Source of the DNA: Enterococcus pallens ATCC BAA-351
GTDB lineage: Bacteria; Bacillota; Bacilli; Lactobacillales; Enterococcaceae
Direction: 5' to 3'
Assembly (NCBI RefSeq): GCF_000407485.1
Contig: NZ_ASWD01000005.1
Location: 186,001 to 250,000, forward strand
DNA: 64,000 nucleotides
Shown one piece after another: positions 47,745 through 62,955 of the stretch (position 1 is the stretch's first letter; each line of letters starts with the position of its first letter). A program made the translations under genes and the position numbers. A model generated the notes under the pieces. That model was not told where the DNA came from. It saw nothing but the letters and a program-made list of their open reading frames with translations, and did not search any database.

Positions 47745-48623
47745 TTATACCATGACTGCTTTACTACGACTTTTCCGAATATATGTGATCCCAGTGTAAA
47801 CAATTACTACAATAATAATCCAAGTTAAAATATCTAAATTCAAACCAGTTACAAATTTAGCAGCAATAACTACACCAAACACACCTAAGATAGTGATAGC
47901 CAAACTTACTTTTCGTGCATAGTTTCCTGACTTGATAAAGTTAATGCTGGCCACTGGCATCAATCCGGCACAAGAACCCATCATAATGGGAAAAGCTACC
48001 AAAGGATTCAGGCCCAACATATAAACCATAGCCATACACGGCGCATATAATCCTACACCGATCGTCATCAAAGCACCAAAAATGAAATTACCAACTACAC
48101 CAATTAGTAATCGACCACCCGTTAGAGCCGTTGCTGTATTTCCTGCACCTAACAAATTAATCATACCAGTTTGACGAAGTGCCATTAAGACTGCCGTAGC
48201 AATCAAAGCCCAACCCATCCAAAATTGAACCGTCTTTTCAGGCAGTTTGGTTACTGTACGGGAACCCACGAAGGACCCGACAGTCGCTGCTGCAATTAGG
48301 GCAAACAATGTTACTGGTGCTACATCCACCACGGTAATAAAAATCATTGCTTCCACTAAAACAGGAATTGCATGACCGACATTCAAGGTTCCAGGCAATA
48401 AGCGATCATGATCTAGTTGTTTTGTTAAATCCAGCAGCATAGCTGTTGGGGCAAAACAACCAATTCCTAATGTATCTAAAAAATCTGTTACAAATCCAAT
48501 TAACCCAGAAACAATCCAGCTTCCGCCACCTAGATTGCCCTTATTTGCGAGAAGGTCTCTTCCCATCAAAACAGCTTGCATCACTGTAAAAATTGCTAAA
48601 ATAGCTAGTACAACTTGTACCAT
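47745..48623 (-). CDS. TauE/SafE-family permease of the proline reductase operon
   Basis: 292 residues with about eight membrane segments. Internal duplication: SGLIGFVTDFLDTLGIGCFAPT and GALMTIGVGLYAPCMAMVYMLG. AAGGAG precedes the ATG. It lies 183 bases after prdB in the same direction, with no promoter-like element I can name between them, only a hairpin, and it ends at the operon's terminator. Possible cargo: 5-aminovalerate out, proline in, or a sulfur/selenium anion in, which would suit two selenoproteins. All three are guesses. Confidence 0.85.
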   Translation of the reverse strand: MVQVVLAILAIFTVMQAVLMGRDLLANKGNLGGGSWIVSGLIGFVTDFLDTLGIGCFAPTAMLLDLTKQLDHDRLLPGTLNVGHAIPVLVEAMIFITVVDVAPVTLFALIAAATVGSFVGSRTVTKLPEKTVQFWMGWALIATAVLMALRQTGMINLLGAGNTATALTGGRLLIGVVGNFIFGALMTIGVGLYAPCMAMVYMLGLNPLVAFPIMMGSCAGLMPVASINFIKSGNYARKVSLAITILGVFGVVIAAKFVTGLNLDILTWIIIVVIVYTGITYIRKSRSKAVMV

Positions 48624-48806: not shown

Positions 48807-49532
48807 CTACACATGCGCAATGTATTCGTAAGGTAATGGAACGATCTTACCTGGTGTCTCGATGGTTACTAAGTTGGTTAACGTATCCTTTAAGATACCT
48901 GTTTGCATCTCAATGTTGTGTGGTTCTCCAGAGTTAGCGCCCATTGGAACCATCGGTGCTACCGCACGTGGTGATCCATTTTGACGTACTACTGGTGGTA
49001 ATGCTGCAATTAAAATAGTAGGAATTCCCGCTTCCTCAATAGCTCTCTGCACGATCACGGCAGTTCTATGACAGGTTCCTCAGCCAGCGGTCATTACGAC
49101 AGCGTCGACTTCTTCGTCTACTAATTTTTGTGCGATCTCAGGTCCAGTCACATCGTGAAAGGCTTCTTGGTCGCCCCCGCCGCCCATAAATGCATAATGA
49201 ACGGGTGCTGCTTCTTTAATAAAGCCTTCTTTGACTAATTCATGCAAACGGTCTATCGGAAACATTGCGTTCACGTCGCGGTTGACATCGGCATTGTCGT
49301 ACCCACCGTGCGATACCATTAATTCGTCGCTTGGTGTACCATCTGGCACTTCGCGGTACGTCGTATCCCCTGCTAAATTGAATCGTTTGTCACTCTTTAA
49401 ATGAACACCTGCTGCAGTAGCTAGTGCAACACGCATTTCTTTCAGCTCTTTTTTGACCGGTGTGAAGACAGATTTCGGCGTGATTGGCACGAAAATTTCT
49501 GACTGCAACCCTTCAAAGACTGTTAAGCCCAT
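48807..49532 (-). CDS. prdB: D-proline reductase selenoprotein subunit PrdB (in-frame UGA)
   Basis: One frame of 241 residues interrupted by a single TGA (bases 49080-49082), codon 151. Read as selenocysteine it gives VVMTAG-U-GTCHRTAV, the active-site context of PrdB, and the frame runs on in family-like sequence to TAG at 48807. The total length equals that of clostridial PrdB as I remember it. The selenocysteine attacks D-proline and, with the pyruvoyl group of PrdA, opens the ring to 5-aminovalerate. An RNA hairpin (CUGC...GCAG) lies just after the UGA, as needed for SelB. The ribosome site (GAGGAG) lies in the end of the upstream gene. Simple gene callers would split it. Confidence 0.93.
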
Positions 49533-49535
49533 GTG

Positions 49536-49835
49536 TTAATTCTCCTCTCTGTGTGTCTGTTCGCGTTTTTTCTGATTTTCCAACCGACGTCGTTCGTGCT
49601 CTTTAATGGCATGAACATAATGATCGTTTGGCTCCTCTTCCAAAACCTCTGGATACGTCATTAAAAATCCAACTTCCTGACCAATTGCTAAATCATATTC
49701 AGAAATGATCATGCGTCGAGGAATTTTTAATTGACCTAAACGTCCTTTGATATCGATTGTTACGCTTGCATCGTGAAGCTCAACAATAATTCCCTCAAAC
49801 ATTTGTTCCGTTGAAATGTATTTGAGTCTGTCCAT
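49536..49835 (-). CDS. Small conserved protein of proline reductase clusters
   Basis: 99 residues between prdA (21 bases) and prdB (3 bases). The N-terminal 65 residues look like a small beta-barrel (IIVELHDASVTIDIKGRLGQL and KIPRRMIIS) followed by an acidic/basic helical tail. Small proteins of this kind occur between prdA and prdB in clostridial clusters (CBO2463/CBO2479-type, from memory). Role unknown, perhaps in assembly. Confidence 0.7.
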   Translation of the reverse strand: MDRLKYISTEQMFEGIIVELHDASVTIDIKGRLGQLKIPRRMIISEYDLAIGQEVGFLMTYPEVLEEEPNDHYVHAIKEHERRRLENQKKREQTHREEN

Positions 49836-49855
49836 AATTTTTTCGTCACCTAAAT

Positions 49856-51754
49856 CTAGTCTTTTTCGTAAATCTCTTGACGTTTTTTGCTCTTAGGTAA
49901 AATTTGTTCATTGTCAACCAGGTCAACTTTCTTGCCCGTCGTCTTTTCAATGATTTCGATATTGTTTAACTTCACATTTGGATTCCACTTGCGTTCAGCT
50001 GCTTTAATTTCGCCGCCGCCCATCAGTGTTTTCAACATTGCCAAGTCGCGAATGGCGTCTTCTTTACACAACGTATTGTTAGACAAGATTTCATTTTCGA
50101 TCCCTTGTTTTGATTTGTTGTTATCCACCATTGCGCCCATTTCTGGGTTTCCGACAACTAGAGCCCCTTGAACGGCAGAGTAGGAATCCCCTACAACCTT
50201 GACGCCTCGTTTACCGATTTCTTCGATATGAGAAGCAAAGTCAATGTGGTTATTTCCGAATCCTTCTGTCGTTACAATCGCTCCGTCAATATCCATCGCT
50301 TCAATCGTCATACCTAGACGTTTTGACACATAGTATTTTTCAGTATTTGCCTGAGGTGAACCGACAAACATCACGCCTACCAAATCAATTTCTGGATCTT
50401 CCATCGCTTCCATCACCAATGGTTCTCTCCAGTAATGACGCGACGTTTCTTTTGATGCAGGTCCAATACAAGTCAATGCATGAATACCACCATCTAATAC
50501 TTCGGTCGGTGCTAACATGATTGGCAGGTTGCCAAGGTCAACGTTGGGTTTTGCACCAAGGGTGCCGACTGGCTCAACAGGCATAATCAAGTTATCGTGC
50601 ATCGCCCCTTGTCCCATGATTTCTTTAACAATCAAGACACGTTTGTTACCAAAACGGCGTTTTTGCACGATTTCTTCTGACGCACTTACCAATGCTTCGT
50701 CTGCTTTTTTAATCGCTTCACGAATCTCTTGGGTAATATAATCGGACGCTTTATGGGCTGCCAATGGACCTGGGCGTTCCATATTCGCCCCTTCTTTAAT
50801 TGTTACTTGCGTTTTAATGAAAATTTCGCCTTTTTCTGGTGCTCCAGGACGTCCCCACATGATGTTGCGGTCCAATTCACCTTCCGATGAACCGAATTCG
50901 CCGATTTGAACACCATTTGCGTCTGTTCCTGTTACTACCAAGACCACACCGTCCAATACGCGTGTTACGCCATGGCCGATATCGCCTTCTGCTTTTGCAG
51001 CAATTGGTTGAACGTCCATGATGGTTTCGCTGTATTCGTTGTAACGGTCTGGCGTAATGATTTCAAAGGTCATGCTTTCCACTAGTTCTTCTAGTTCAAC
51101 TGCTTCAGCACACATTTCTTCCATCTTACGTAAGATTAAGGTTGTTCCTTCAATTTTCGTCTCTTCGCCAAATTTTACTTTGTCGATCGTTAAGTAGTCA
51201 CGACGAACCGAGCGAATCACTTTCTCTTCTACTTCTGCCTCCGCAGCTGGTGCCTGCGGTGCAGGAGCGGCTGCTTGTTCTGGCGCAATTGGCGCTGGTG
51301 CAGCAGGTGCTGCCACGCCCATTGATCCAGCAACGGACATAGGGACTTCTAAGTCAATACCTTTTCCTTCTGCAATGTGAATCTTGATGGTTCCTCCTGC
51401 AAATGGTACTGCTGATGCTGCAGGCGGTACGGGGTGAACAGGTGCTTCTGACACTGCGGGCATTGGTTCTTCTGCCACTTCTGGTTCGGCAGCTTCCACT
51501 TCCTTCACACCATCAAGAATCTCTCTTGTTAAAGGAATCAAGGCATCTGTGGTTTCCTTTAACGTTGTTCCAAGTACTTGTTCGATTGTTAACGCGTTTT
51601 CAGGGATTTCTAGTAACCCTGAATCCTCCAAATCTTCAAAGATCGCTGGATCTTCTAAATCATCTGGTGCGATCACTTTCCCTGCTTCTGCACGGCAACA
51701 TAATACTGCAGGATCTTTTGCATGTTCTTTCGCAGTTTCTGCTGTAATAGACAT
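49856..51754 (-). CDS. prdA: D-proline reductase proprotein PrdA
   Basis: 632 residues, preceded by TTAGGAGG. The start MSITAETAKEHAKDPAVLCCRAE matches the PrdA family. Residues 145-175 form an Ala/Pro linker. Self-cleavage before Cys429 in HALTCIGPASKET should create the pyruvoyl group that binds proline. The product forms two subunits that assemble with PrdB. The reaction reduces D-proline to 5-aminovalerate as an electron sink (Stickland fermentation). It lies 26 bases after prdC. No proline racemase gene (prdF) is present in the window, so racemisation must be encoded elsewhere. Confidence 0.95.
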   Translation of the reverse strand: MSITAETAKEHAKDPAVLCCRAEAGKVIAPDDLEDPAIFEDLEDSGLLEIPENALTIEQVLGTTLKETTDALIPLTREILDGVKEVEAAEPEVAEEPMPAVSEAPVHPVPPAASAVPFAGGTIKIHIAEGKGIDLEVPMSVAGSMGVAAPAAPAPIAPEQAAAPAPQAPAAEAEVEEKVIRSVRRDYLTIDKVKFGEETKIEGTTLILRKMEEMCAEAVELEELVESMTFEIITPDRYNEYSETIMDVQPIAAKAEGDIGHGVTRVLDGVVLVVTGTDANGVQIGEFGSSEGELDRNIMWGRPGAPEKGEIFIKTQVTIKEGANMERPGPLAAHKASDYITQEIREAIKKADEALVSASEEIVQKRRFGNKRVLIVKEIMGQGAMHDNLIMPVEPVGTLGAKPNVDLGNLPIMLAPTEVLDGGIHALTCIGPASKETSRHYWREPLVMEAMEDPEIDLVGVMFVGSPQANTEKYYVSKRLGMTIEAMDIDGAIVTTEGFGNNHIDFASHIEEIGKRGVKVVGDSYSAVQGALVVGNPEMGAMVDNNKSKQGIENEILSNNTLCKEDAIRDLAMLKTLMGGGEIKAAERKWNPNVKLNNIEIIEKTTGKKVDLVDNEQILPKSKKRQEIYEKD

Positions 51755-51780
51755 TCGTTAATTCCTCCTAAGATTTTTTC

Positions 51781-53070
51781 TTAATTTGTCGGTAATTTAC
51801 GATATAGTCTGTGCCCATCAGCCCGCAGTACGTGATCTGTATGATGATAAACCGGAACTCCTAACCTAGGAGCTACACCCATGACGGTGTTCGTTCAATC
51901 AGAACAGGAGCCAGTCATTACGACTTCGGCGCCTTGTTTTTTCAAGGACATTACCGCCTTCGCTTGACCTGGACATATACCTGGTAAGGCACACCTATAT
52001 CTTCCATTTACTTCTACCATTCGCTTACAGCGTTCTGCAGCGACAACTTCAGCGCCCATGTTATTCACGATTTCGGTCATCCGTTCTGCGGAACCTCCGC
52101 ATTCGCAAATCAGCAAGCCGACTTTGCGGTGTTCCTGTGGAAATGGCATAGCTACTAGCACGCCTCCACTTGTTTTCGTAATTGGCGTTGTTTCTTCCCC
52201 GCTGCGTCCAGTCATCGGTCCGCCGATAACGATTTCGCCATGAGGCTCTACATAGCCGCCTACATTATTAATTAATGTTTTGACAGGTGTTCCCATCGGA
52301 ACATCTACAAAGACCGTTTCCTTTTGTTTCACCCGTCCAGAAACCGTGACATCCTTGTCGATGAATGGCTTGCGATCTTCAATGGCCTCTGCAATCCGTT
52401 TGATCGTTTCGACATTATCAATGACTGCACCGACTTCCGTTGGAAGCTGGCCTGGTTCCAAGACAACATCCATCACCTCACGAACAATCATACGTTCATC
52501 GCCTGCTGGATAAATATCCGGCAGTTGATACACCTCAATATTCGCTTCGGCCTCCACTGCTTTGATTAAGCGCAGCACTAATTGGCGATGTTTACCTTTC
52601 ACCGCAATGACACCTTTAGGTGCCTTCACCATCTCCATACAATACTTCGTTCCACGGATCAACTGATCAATATGCTCACTCATTTGTTTCACGTTATGAG
52701 CAAGCAGCGCTTCACACTCCGCTCCATTGGCAATAAATACGCCCTCAGAAATTTCACAGGACAGTTTTAGAAATGTTGGGAAACCAGCTCCGCCAGCACC
52801 AACAACTCCGGCTTCTTCTACCGCTTTAATCATGGAATCTGTTTCTGGAATCGGTACATAGCTGGAAAAGTCCTGTTCCTCATCAATCATCAGAACAACA
52901 CTTTCGTCACTAACATCTACTACTTTGCCAGAAAAACTGCTGTGAATATTGGCTCCAAGACCATTTGGCTCCGCAACCAACTGACCTCGTTTAACCTTTT
53001 CTCCAGCTTGGACAATCCCTTTACAAGGAGCGCCAACATGTTGCTTTAATGGTATAAGAATTTGTGTCAA
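51781..53070 (-). CDS. prdC: Electron-transfer protein PrdC (RnfC-like), in-frame UGA selenoprotein
   Basis: 429 residues if TGA at 51895-51897 (codon 392) is read as selenocysteine. The motif is TGSCSD-U-TNTVMG, after which 37 more codons (VAPRLGVPVYHHTDHVLRAD...) run in family-like sequence to TAA, so stopping at the UGA would remove the C-terminus. The N-terminus has an RnfC-like biotinyl-type fold (GIVQAGEKVKRGQ), the flavin/NADH loop GAGGAGFPTFLKL and later CxCGG and RCALPGICPG. It should pass electrons from NADH to the reductase. It starts at a TTG, nine bases after AGGAGGTGA. A CUCCUA/UAGGAG hairpin lies about 25 bases past the UGA, a typical bacterial SECIS position. Confidence 0.92.
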
Positions 53071-53125
53071 TTTATTTCACCTCCTGTATTTATACTGCCG
53101 CTATATTAGTAAAATTTAATAGCTC

Positions 53126-53481: not shown

Positions 53482-54360
53482 ATGGATACTAGAAAATACA
53501 AAGTATTATTGACAGTAGTGGATTTAGGAAGCTTTACTAAAGCAGCAGATGAGCTGGGGTATACGGTCTCAGGTATTTCTCATATGATGAATTCTTTAGA
53601 AGAAGAAATCGGTTTTAAAATCCTATTTCGTTCCAAAAAAGGGGTAACATTATCTCATGATGGTGCTGAGCTCTTGCCAATTTTACGTTCTATTATCAAA
53701 TTGGAGGAGAAATACGAGCAAACATTGAGTGAGATGCATGACTTGAACCAAGGAAGTATTCATATAGGAAGCTATCCCAGTGTTGCCAACCACTGGCTGC
53801 CAAAAATTATCAAGCAATTTAATCGACAATACCCTAAAATAAGAATAAAGATAACTGAAGGAGTTAATCAGGAAATCTTAAAATTACTAGATGAAAAAAG
53901 AGTTGATTTTGGATTTGCCAGTAGTCAAAATATCGGAAATTACAAATGGATTCCTCTCGGGACAGATCCAATGATTGCCGTTTTACCGTTGGATCACCCT
54001 AAAGCAGAGGATGAATACTATGATTTGAGAGATGTTGAACATGATGATTTTATTGTTACAGCTGGAGGAAATGATGAGGATGTGTCTAATTTATTGAGAA
54101 AATATTCACTTACTCCAAATATTAGTTATCAAACCTTCGAAAACTACTCAGCTTTAGCGATGATCGAAGAAGGTTTAGGCATGAGTGTGATGAATGAATT
54201 AATCACTAAAGGAAGAAATGTTACCTTAGTTAAGAAAAAATTAAACCCACCAGCATTCATTGAATTAGGCATGCTAATACCAAAGGACATTGTAACGCCG
54301 GCAGTTGTAAAGTTTGTTGAGTACACTAAAAATTATTTTGAAGAACACCCAACTATTTAA
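53482..54360 (+). CDS. LysR-family regulator, probable controller of the prd operon
   Basis: 292 residues, preceded by AAGGTGG. Helix-turn-helix GSFTKAADELGYTVSGISHM and a LysR effector domain (HIGSYPSVANHWLPKIIKQF). It is divergent from prdC across 411 bases with a LysR-type dyad between them. In clostridia the operon is run by the sigma-54 activator PrdR; no such gene or -24/-12 box is seen here, so regulation appears different. The effector may be proline. Confidence 0.85.
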   Translation: MDTRKYKVLLTVVDLGSFTKAADELGYTVSGISHMMNSLEEEIGFKILFRSKKGVTLSHDGAELLPILRSIIKLEEKYEQTLSEMHDLNQGSIHIGSYPSVANHWLPKIIKQFNRQYPKIRIKITEGVNQEILKLLDEKRVDFGFASSQNIGNYKWIPLGTDPMIAVLPLDHPKAEDEYYDLRDVEHDDFIVTAGGNDEDVSNLLRKYSLTPNISYQTFENYSALAMIEEGLGMSVMNELITKGRNVTLVKKKLNPPAFIELGMLIPKDIVTPAVVKFVEYTKNYFEEHPTI

Positions 54361-60015: not shown

Positions 60016-62619
60016 TCAAATCCATTCTTTTGCAATTTTTATATAAAGGAACTTAGCAAATTGGACTGCCGCCATATACGCTGCGACAATACCTACAAAC
60101 CAAACCCAGTAATTGACAGGTAATTGGACAAATTCAAATTGTTCTCGGAATGGCGACAAAACAATAATCATACCAATGATAACCGCTGACATTATGCTAG
60201 CAAATACTGGCAGAGAAGGTCGGCTTTGAATAAATGGAATTTTTCGTGTTCTTACCATTAAAACGACTAAAGCCTGAGTTGCTAATCCCACCATGAACCA
60301 GCCTGTTTGAAATAAGCTTTGGTTTCCAACAGTATTTGCTCCAAATACGAACCACATCACTAAGAAAGTAATCACATCGAAAATTGAACTGACTGGTCCA
60401 ATACAAACAGTAAATTTCATAAGCCCATTGGTTTCCCATTTAGTTGGCTTTAGCAGCTCCTCTTCATCAACGTTATCCCAAGGAATAGTTAGTTGAGCAA
60501 TATCATAAATTAGGTTTTGCAGCAAAAGTTGCAATGACAGCATTGGCAAGAAAGGCAAGAAAGCACTGGCAATCAAAATGGAAAACACATTTCCGAAGTT
60601 TGAACTAATGGTAATCTTGATGTATTTCATCATATTACTAAACACTCTGCGGCCTTCAATTACTCCACTTTCCAATACATTCAAACTTTTTTCTAAAAGT
60701 ATAATTGAACTTGCATCTTTAGTAATATCCGCTGCTGTATCCACTGAAATTCCTACATCTGCTTTACGCAAAGCAGGCGCATCGTTTATTCCATCACCCA
60801 TAAAACCAACTGTGTGACCCGTTGTTTGTAAAGCTTCAATAATTCGTGCTTTTTGCATGGGATTCAATTTAGCGAATAAATGAGTTTGATTTGCTGCCTG
60901 CTGCAGCTCTTCATCACTCATTTGATCGACCTGGTTGCCTAAAACAAATCTATTTGCGTCAATACCTACATCTTGGCAAACCTTTTGCGCTACAATTGCA
61001 TTGTCGCCTGTTAGAACTTTTACATCTACCCCGTGTTCATGCAAAGAAGCGATCGCAGTAATTGCTGATTCTTTCGCCGGATCTAAAAAGCCCATAAAAC
61101 CAATCAAGGTCATGTCCTTTTCGTCCTCTGTACTATAAACAGCTTCGTCATGCGCGTCTCGTTTAATTGCCACTGTAATTACACGCATCCCCTGACGATT
61201 CATTCGCTCGTTAACACTTTTCAACTGTTGATGCAGTTCCTCAGTGAATTCAAGTACTTCACCATCAATTTCAACATATTTACAGATTGACGCCATCTCT
61301 TCAACCGCACCTTTAGTAATCATCCATTGGTGTTCGTCCGCCTTTACCACGACAGTTAAACGACGTCGAGAAAAATCAAACGGTATTTCATCAATTTTTT
61401 GCACCGAATCAAAAGGTAATTTTCGACTTTCCTCCTCGTAGTAATTAATGACAGCAATGTCCATTAGGTTTTTCCAGCCTGTTTGATAATTTGAATTCAA
61501 AAAGGCCAAATCCAAGACCTGAGTATTTTCTTTGCCTAATGGATCAAGGTGCTGAACTAAAACTACTCGATCCTCAGTAATCGTGCCTGTCTTATCTGTA
61601 CATAATACATCCATACTCCCTAAGTTTTGAATTGAAGGAAGTTCCTTCACGATTACTTTATGCTTTGATAAGGTTAATGCTCCTTTTGCTAAGTTAGAGC
61701 TGACAATCATTGGCAGCATTTCTGGTGTTAAACCGACTGCAACAGCAATAGCGAAGAAAAAGGCATTGCTCCAATCACCCTTTGTGAGTCCATTAATTAA
61801 GAAAACTAATGGGAAAAGCACCATAATCAAGCGCAACAATACTTTACTGACACGAGCTAAACCAACGTCAAAGGAAGTTTTGCCGCGTTTGGTTGTGGCA
61901 TTTTTCGCAATATCGCCAAAGAAAGTCTGTTGGCCAGTTTTCAAAATAATTGCTCGTCCCTGACCGCTTAATACATCCGTCCCCATAAAAACTAAATTTG
62001 ACATATCTAATGCATTATTTTCATCATCAGAATCTATGGAAGCGGATTTCTCTACTGGCATTGATTCACCAGTCAAAGAAGATTGATTCACAAATAAATC
62101 CTTCGTCCAAATTAAAACTGCATCTGCAGGAATCATATCGCCAGTCGCTAAAGTTAAAATATCTCCTGGTACTACTTCATCCATGGGAATTTCTTTTGTC
62201 TGACCTTCCCTAGTAATTGCCGCCGTATTTTCAATCATTTCCCGCAATTCAATACTTGCTTTTTGCGAACGATATTCTTGAATGAAAGTAATCAGGACAC
62301 TAGCTAAGATCATTATTCCCATAACAATAGCTGCTTCGTAATCAGAAGTTAAAAAAGATACGATCATCAATAGTGCCAACACATATACAAACAAGTCATT
62401 GAATGCTTGAATGAATAAAATAATTGCTGGAGTAGGCTTTTGAGCTGATACTTCATTGGGACCATACTCTTCTAATCTTGCTTGAGCATCCTCTTCAGAT
62501 AATCCTTTCAAAGATGTGCGTAAATTCAGGAATAAATCACGATCTGATAATAGTGCTAGTTTCATTAATTCTTGATCTTTACTTATTTTGCGTGTGATGA
62601 GGTTCTTTTTGTTCATCAT
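60016..62619 (-). CDS. mgtA: Magnesium-transporting P-type ATPase
   Basis: 867 residues. Phosphorylated Asp in CTDKTGTIT, hinge MGDGINDAPALRKADVGISV, TGES in SLTGES, and ten predicted membrane segments with the P3-type C-terminal half; the opening region matches MgtA/MgtB. It imports magnesium under limitation. GGTAGGAGG precedes the ATG. Its start lies within the end of a 40-codon upstream frame, and an M-box RNA and a terminator lie ahead, so expression should rise when magnesium is low. Confidence 0.95.
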   Translation of the reverse strand: MMNKKNLITRKISKDQELMKLALLSDRDLFLNLRTSLKGLSEEDAQARLEEYGPNEVSAQKPTPAIILFIQAFNDLFVYVLALLMIVSFLTSDYEAAIVMGIMILASVLITFIQEYRSQKASIELREMIENTAAITREGQTKEIPMDEVVPGDILTLATGDMIPADAVLIWTKDLFVNQSSLTGESMPVEKSASIDSDDENNALDMSNLVFMGTDVLSGQGRAIILKTGQQTFFGDIAKNATTKRGKTSFDVGLARVSKVLLRLIMVLFPLVFLINGLTKGDWSNAFFFAIAVAVGLTPEMLPMIVSSNLAKGALTLSKHKVIVKELPSIQNLGSMDVLCTDKTGTITEDRVVLVQHLDPLGKENTQVLDLAFLNSNYQTGWKNLMDIAVINYYEEESRKLPFDSVQKIDEIPFDFSRRRLTVVVKADEHQWMITKGAVEEMASICKYVEIDGEVLEFTEELHQQLKSVNERMNRQGMRVITVAIKRDAHDEAVYSTEDEKDMTLIGFMGFLDPAKESAITAIASLHEHGVDVKVLTGDNAIVAQKVCQDVGIDANRFVLGNQVDQMSDEELQQAANQTHLFAKLNPMQKARIIEALQTTGHTVGFMGDGINDAPALRKADVGISVDTAADITKDASSIILLEKSLNVLESGVIEGRRVFSNMMKYIKITISSNFGNVFSILIASAFLPFLPMLSLQLLLQNLIYDIAQLTIPWDNVDEEELLKPTKWETNGLMKFTVCIGPVSSIFDVITFLVMWFVFGANTVGNQSLFQTGWFMVGLATQALVVLMVRTRKIPFIQSRPSLPVFASIMSAVIIGMIIVLSPFREQFEFVQLPVNYWVWFVGIVAAYMAAVQFAKFLYIKIAKEWI

Positions 62620-62764: not shown

Positions 62765-62775
62765 AAAAGCAATCA

Positions 62776-62937
62776 CGGTCGTCATCGTCGAGCTTTAGCA
62801 CTATAGGGCGTAGACAGATAAATCTGTCAGCTGCGTTATGAATCACCTTCACGATGATTCCTGTTCAACCAACTAAGAGTCTCTCGATTCTTTCGCGGCA
62901 GCAGCTTGTGTCCATATAGGAGCCTCACCTAACAATT
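62776..62937 (-). ncRNA. M-box (ykoK) magnesium riboswitch
   Basis: The minus strand shows the conserved M-box start (TTAGGTGAGGCTCCTATATG followed by CTGCTGCC), the central AACAGGAATCATCG...AGGTGATTCATAACGCAGCTG and the end CCCTATAGTGCTAAAGCTC. Folding around magnesium favours the downstream terminator, so mgtA is read only when magnesium is scarce. Confidence 0.92.
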
Positions 62938-62955
62938 AATATAATTTCCATCTTT

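Follow-up and report, generated by a model that had tools for sequence, protein, structure and literature searches.

The prdC gene in the 64,000-nucleotide stretch of Enterococcus pallens DNA analysed here (the window) almost certainly encodes a selenoprotein: PrdC, an RnfC-like protein that serves selenium-dependent D-proline reductase as electron-transfer partner, in which an in-frame UGA would be decoded as selenocysteine (Sec) through SelB, tRNA-Sec and a SECIS hairpin. The UGA codon, a conserved tail beyond it, the constraint that the hairpin shows at the nucleotide level and the genes of the Sec machinery can all be read in the DNA, and from them we infer Sec insertion and the route of the electrons. 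The original prediction had placed prdC next to prdB as the second gene of the operon to decode UGA, and this reading agrees with a profile match, the conservation of the tail, a relative with Cys at the Sec position, published SECIS constraints, a run of codons frozen at synonymous sites and the presence of the Sec machinery. The gene is of a kind already described, known from Clostridia since 2010 and here carried by a lactic acid bacterium. A gene caller using the plain code table would cut PrdC at residue 391 and lose the redox centre, so a sound annotation of the gene depends on reading this codon correctly. The gene is also a pointer to Sec decoding, and to proline fermentation that depends on selenium, among the Lactobacillales.

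The prdC gene, its frame and its product

The prdC frame comprises 430 codons, which yield 429 residues with Sec at position 392; residues 389–392 read CSDU (Table 1). The extent and minus strand of the gene, the place of the UGA, the 37 in-frame codons after it and the terminal TAA had all been given in the original prediction, and they prove exact to the base. The window protein scores 575 bits against TIGR04481, the equivalog model of PrdC (cut-off 490), in a match that spans residues 6–426 of 429 and profile positions 3–424 of 425; because the match extends to residue 426, the profile itself takes in the tail. The N-terminal ~300 residues match the RnfC chains 9eri_C and 7zc6_C of the PDB.

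Table 1. Features of the prd locus in the window (positions are those of the window)
Feature	Position	Strand	Remarks
TauE/SafE-type membrane protein	47745..48623	-	PF01925, 41.1 bits
prdB, selenoprotein subunit	48807..49532	-	UGA codon 151 at 49080-49082; TIGR04483, 403.6 bits through the UGA
CBO2463/CBO2479 domain protein	49536..49835	-	NF041553, 88.5 bits
prdA, D-proline reductase proprotein	49856..51754	-	TIGR04480, 973.6 bits
prdC	51781..53070	-	TTG start at 53070, TAA stop 51781-51783; TIGR04481 match
prdC 37-codon tail after the UGA	51784..51894	-	sense codons up to the TAA
Putative bacterial SECIS hairpin	51856..51874	-	core 51858-51872 (arms 51867-51872 and 51858-51863, loop GGU 51864-51866); two outer pairs extend it to the full span
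UGA codon 392 of prdC	51895..51897	-	probably read as selenocysteine; C389-x-x-U392 motif
Shine-Dalgarno-like AGGAGGTG	53078..53085	-	precedes the prdC TTG start; read from the sequence
Divergent LysR-type regulator	53482..54360	+	PF00126/PF03466

Conservation of the tail and of codon 392

To the window PrdC we aligned those of four loci of Enterococcaceae, of Acetoanaerobium and of 13 loci from a genome scan (n = 19). Position 389 is Cys in all 19 sequences and position 392 is Sec or Cys in every one; within the tail, T395, V396, A400, P401, Y408, H409, T411, D412, R416 and L422 are invariant throughout the alignment. Eight of the 19 are Cys-type PrdCs, with no stop at 392, and the same tail continues in them. 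The 37 codons had been taken for a real C-terminal part of the protein, and the aligned homologues do keep it.

The scan yielded at least 80 loci, of which the best 14 (L056–L069) were examined as PrdC and the remaining 66 are RnfC-like matches, 29–40% identical; L056 and L057 are not independent of L026 and L021. The UGA/Cys site was inspected in 15 loci (L055 and L056–L069), and a Paraclostridium plasmid copy (L171) was left out, as it is not readable in one frame. In all 10 Cys-type loci examined, the site of codon 392 is TGT or TGC.

These data bear on two other explanations of the UGA. If it were a true stop, the protein would end at residue 391 and the open frame beyond it would be a relic or a product of chance. 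An open reading frame listing made with code table 11 does end at the UGA, but the conservation of the tail in the 19 aligned PrdCs, eight of which (the Cys-type) read straight through, makes a true stop extremely improbable, and further evidence against it is given below. Alternatively, the TGA could stand in place of a Cys codon (TGT or TGC to TGA), either as an error of sequencing or through a nonsense mutation of recent date, since it lies one base from the Cys codons of the Cys-type relatives. However, TGA together with the hairpin also occurs in the second prdC copy of this genome and in 22 more genomes of the family, as it does in Gemella, Colibacter, Halanaerobium and further Clostridia; we regard an error or recent mutation as ruled out by these independent copies, with a probability that is extremely small.

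A hairpin constrained at the nucleotide level

A CUCCUA/UAGGAG hairpin had been predicted about 25 bases past the UGA. It is present; its stem begins 22 nt from the UGA and its loop 28 nt from it. The constraints on bacterial SECIS elements given in the Fig. 2 legend of a 2026 review (PMC13188914) are a stem of 4–16 bp, 16–37 nt from UGA to loop and a minimum free energy of at most -7.5 kcal/mol. With its 3-nt GGU loop, in which G is the first base, an 8-bp stem and the 28-nt spacing, the window hairpin fits the constraints in that legend, and its 30-nt core folds at -9.7 kcal/mol, versus the limit of -7.5. A SECIS-type structure, on which the original prediction depended, was searched for and found.

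Stronger evidence comes from the sequence of the hairpin region. Codons +6 to +17 form a run of 12 consecutive degenerate codons with zero synonymous difference in 24 prdC copies (from 23 genomes, both copies of the window genome included); the gene-wide mean pair difference is 0.43, the next-longest frozen run is 2 codons, and when the order of the codons was shuffled 10,000 times a 12-codon run was never reached. The exact pattern of UGA-N21-hairpin occurs twice in the 5.4-Mb genome, each time in a prdC. The reading of the UGA as a true stop can draw on the fact that a comparable perfect hairpin follows 112 of 2720 TGA trinucleotides by chance (4.1%; window, both strands, all frames), but it is opposed by the freezing of these 12 codons at the nucleotide level.

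Other measures give the hairpin less prominence. The 58-nt stretch does not stand out by its folding energy (z = -1.47; 16 of 200 shuffled sequences are at least as stable), and Rfam searched at gathering thresholds returns no SECIS match in the window, its sole match there being an M-box riboswitch. Inspection of 16 distinct sequences by eye revealed no compensatory base changes in the stem; the case for the hairpin rests on conservation because the stem hardly varies and so offers no covariation. By itself the hairpin is weak evidence, and it is the nucleotide-level conservation that makes the putative SECIS convincing.

The distribution of the core follows the type of PrdC. The core GCTCCTAGGTTAGGAG is found in 15 of the 16 distinct UGA-PrdC sequences, and its carriers, all Bacillota, belong to Bacilli (enterococci, Gemella), Negativicutes (Colibacter) and Clostridia (Acetoanaerobium, along with Alkalithermobacter and a Tissierellales MAG, both of which we take to be Clostridia). 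The sixteenth, from Halanaerobium, keeps the stem and has the loop CGGGU, departing from the others at a single base of the loop and at one of the two bases in the innermost pair; cut to the same 30 nt it has a folding energy of -7.3 kcal/mol, which narrowly misses the limit of -7.5. The core is absent from all 10 Cys-type loci examined. Some other perfect 5-bp hairpin lies at a comparable distance in three of these 10, so a small hairpin at that place is not in itself diagnostic.

Co-occurrence with SelB and the selenocysteine machinery

Among 105 Enterococcaceae genomes, PrdC scores above cut-off in 24, of which 23 have one TGA in the gene and one (G095) has none. SelB scores above cut-off in exactly the same 23 genomes as UGA PrdC (Fisher p ~1e-23, computed ignoring shared ancestry); all 105 genomes match the SelB model at E <= 0.001, and it is only the cut-off that tells them apart. 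This coincidence in 23 of 23 genomes also argues against a true stop. The relative with no TGA carries Cys at the same place, which the original prediction had proposed to look for in Sec-less relatives: G095 has TGT at PrdC position 392, a PrdB without TGA and no SelB above cut-off. Outside the enterococci, SelB is above cut-off in all four UGA-PrdC genomes tested (L058, L059, L061, L068). Tissierella sp. P1 has a Cys-PrdC, yet its SelB match, in two adjoining pieces, is above cut-off. Because Cys-PrdC occurs beside SelB both there and on a Ligilactobacillus salivarius plasmid, Sec in PrdC, judging from these sequences, is used but not obligatory; for C. difficile this was noted earlier, in a passage of PMC3091704.

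SelA, SelB, SelD and tRNA-Sec are all present in the window genome (5.44 Mb, 13 contigs). A row of genes at G000:C1:928195-934561 consists of selD, yedF, a small ORF, selB, a cysteine desulfurase-family gene and selA; the profile scores of selA, selB and selD are 606.5 (TIGR00474), 369.4 (TIGR00475) and 372.7 bits (TIGR00476), respectively, the cut-off of the selB model being 242. The tRNA-Sec gene lies at C1:940079-940171 (RF01852, 70.9 bits versus a gathering threshold of 47). About 215 bases from it there is a match to the sRNA family BsrC (L009 1808-1897; 50.5 bits, gathering threshold 38).

The machinery also bears on whether the UGA might be read as some residue other than selenocysteine, by near-cognate suppression or under a reassigned code. 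Such a reading is compatible with the sequence of the gene alone, but we consider it very improbable. Against it stand the Cys that occupies exactly this position in a relative with no SelB above cut-off, the CxxU motif, the SECIS hairpin and the set of SelA, SelB, SelD and tRNA-Sec, and the neighbouring genes are long, ordinary table-11 frames.

The prd operon and its neighbours

Downstream of prdC, prdA and prdB follow on the same strand, which is the linkage expected of the PrdC family. The prdB gene shows a freeze of its own: 11 degenerate codons past its UGA are without synonymous change (window 49020-49082, minus strand) across 22 rows, which represent 21 distinct loci as L161 is the window itself; L138, L140, L157 and L168 were left out. 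The prdB of L. salivarius has nearly the same bases as the frozen stretch past the UGA. These patterns are pointing to a second, putative SECIS in prdB after its UGA.

The TauE/SafE-type gene likewise stands downstream of prd genes in E. raffinosus and L. salivarius. On the other side, the divergent LysR-type regulator possibly regulates the operon; among NCBIfam models it scores highest with NF040786, that of the selenium-metabolism LysR, at 125 bits and so well below the cut-off of 250. The M-box (magnesium) riboswitch of the window lies farther off, at 62774-62943 (118.8 bits), upstream of an 867-aa ORF at 60016-62619.

A second prd operon in the same genome

The window genome has a second, larger prd operon on contig C1, in which prdB is followed by prdD-like, component-B-like and proline racemase-like genes, names that rest on their counterparts in the annotated operon of E. 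raffinosus. The window operon is without prdD, prdE and prdF between prdB and the TauE gene. In no other of the 105 genomes are two PrdCs above cut-off.

The two operons share a core of 4278 ungapped nucleotides (window 48807-53084; L048 10785-15062 on C1) with 52 differences, or 98.8% identity; its ends are the ribosome-binding site of prdC (53084) and the final base of prdB (48807). In the immediate flanks outside this core nothing aligns between the window and the C1 copy; the TauE genes farther downstream of both operons are 72–74% identical. The 111-nt prdC tail has 0 differences between the copies. In the 3′ part of prdB (window 48810-49076), 12 of 267 sites differ, all of them in the last 180 nt of the duplicate; this is far more divergence than elsewhere in the core, and it possibly marks the end of a gene-conversion tract.

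In a sister genome (G006) the surroundings of both operons are present, the upstream ones on contigs C98 and C56 and the downstream ones on C57 and C86; its core is assembled only in part and once, with contigs ending within it. The two prdC copies of the window genome are 99.1% identical to each other and 87.1–87.5% identical to that of the sister genome. The simplest reading of this pattern, made with an incomplete sister core, is that the duplication is older than the species split and has been kept uniform by gene conversion. More tentatively, and with somewhat less than even confidence, we suggest that this lineage has two prd loci whose prdC-prdA-CBO2463-prdB core, with both UGA genes, has been kept near-identical by gene conversion since before the sister-species split while the flanks and prdD/E/F differ; the reduced copy might then serve, under regulation of its own, as an additional source of both selenoproteins and of the catalytic subunit, with PrdD/E/F and the racemase shared from the other locus.

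Proposed mechanism and known systems

In the mechanism that we propose, SelB with tRNA-Sec would decode the in-frame UGA, directed by the SECIS hairpin whose loop follows downstream, and the Sec so inserted would complete a redox centre, C389-x-x-U392, that lies in the C-terminal part of PrdC. According to the C. sticklandii model, as set out in part of PMC3091704, NADH would reduce the C-x-x-U centre of PrdC, PrdC would pass the electrons by exchange to the selenide-sulphide of PrdB, and PrdB would cleave the D-proline bound to the pyruvoyl group of PrdA, giving 5-aminovalerate. The original prediction further held that two selenoproteins in one operon make selenium supply a real limit on the fermentation. 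This is only plausible, because PrdB alone makes the reductase selenium-dependent and Cys-PrdC occurs beside Sec-PrdB; a second selenoprotein adds selenium demand without creating dependence.

The publication of PrdC as a CxxU selenoprotein dates from 2010, when PMC3091704, in one of its passages, placed the Sec of the C. sticklandii protein at residue 392 of 428; parts of the 2026 review (PMC13188914) list PrdC form 1 (CxxU) and name prdB-prdC as a typical selenoprotein operon. As far as those passages of PMC3091704 describe it, the PrdC of C. (now Acetoanaerobium) sticklandii, CLOST_2236, resembles that of the window in its TIGR04481 match, its CxxU motif, its operon with a Sec-PrdB and the position of Sec (392 of 428 versus 392 of 429). 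Unlike C. sticklandii, the window host is an enterococcus, its prdC has a TTG start, and the operon is a reduced duplicate that lacks prdD, prdE and prdF between prdB and TauE. The PrdC of a congener of sticklandii, Acetoanaerobium noterae, is 58% identical to that of the window. A second form of PrdC (UPGQ), in the portion of PMC13188914 that describes it, matches TIGR04481 like the window protein, but has its Sec in a UPGQ motif; by motif, the corresponding place in the window PrdC would be Cys366-PGQ, and Sec is at 392 instead.

Closer relatives are found among the enterococci. The prdC of E. raffinosus (WP_222227466.1), on the 985-kb plasmid pCX012922, has 90% protein identity to the window's and UGA at codon 392; its annotation is a single gene of 1290 bp that runs through the UGA, and the order of the genes is prdC-prdA-CBO2463-prdB as in the window. 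The E. raffinosus operon continues with prdD, a component B subunit and a proline racemase family gene, which the window copy lacks. RefSeq annotates enterococcal prdC across the UGA in both E. raffinosus and E. gilvus. We found no paper on enterococcal PrdC among the matches listed from the open-licence PMC literature, which says little about what is in print overall; a section of a 2006 survey gives, among Lactobacillales, only an orphan SelD, in E. faecalis (PMC1794560).

Another lineage of Lactobacillales has prd genes together with selB and selA on the L. salivarius plasmid NZ_LT604075.1 (L168, L169), where PrdB is a Sec protein with UGA codon 151, as in the window. The PrdC of this plasmid differs in being Cys-type; it is 44% identical to the window's, and its gene stands between selA and selD, apart from prdA. 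The plasmid is typed as mobilizable and carries prdA, UGA-prdB, prdD, a racemase family gene, selB, selA, selD and the Cys-type prdC, so that it holds by itself most of a selenium-dependent proline reductase kit.
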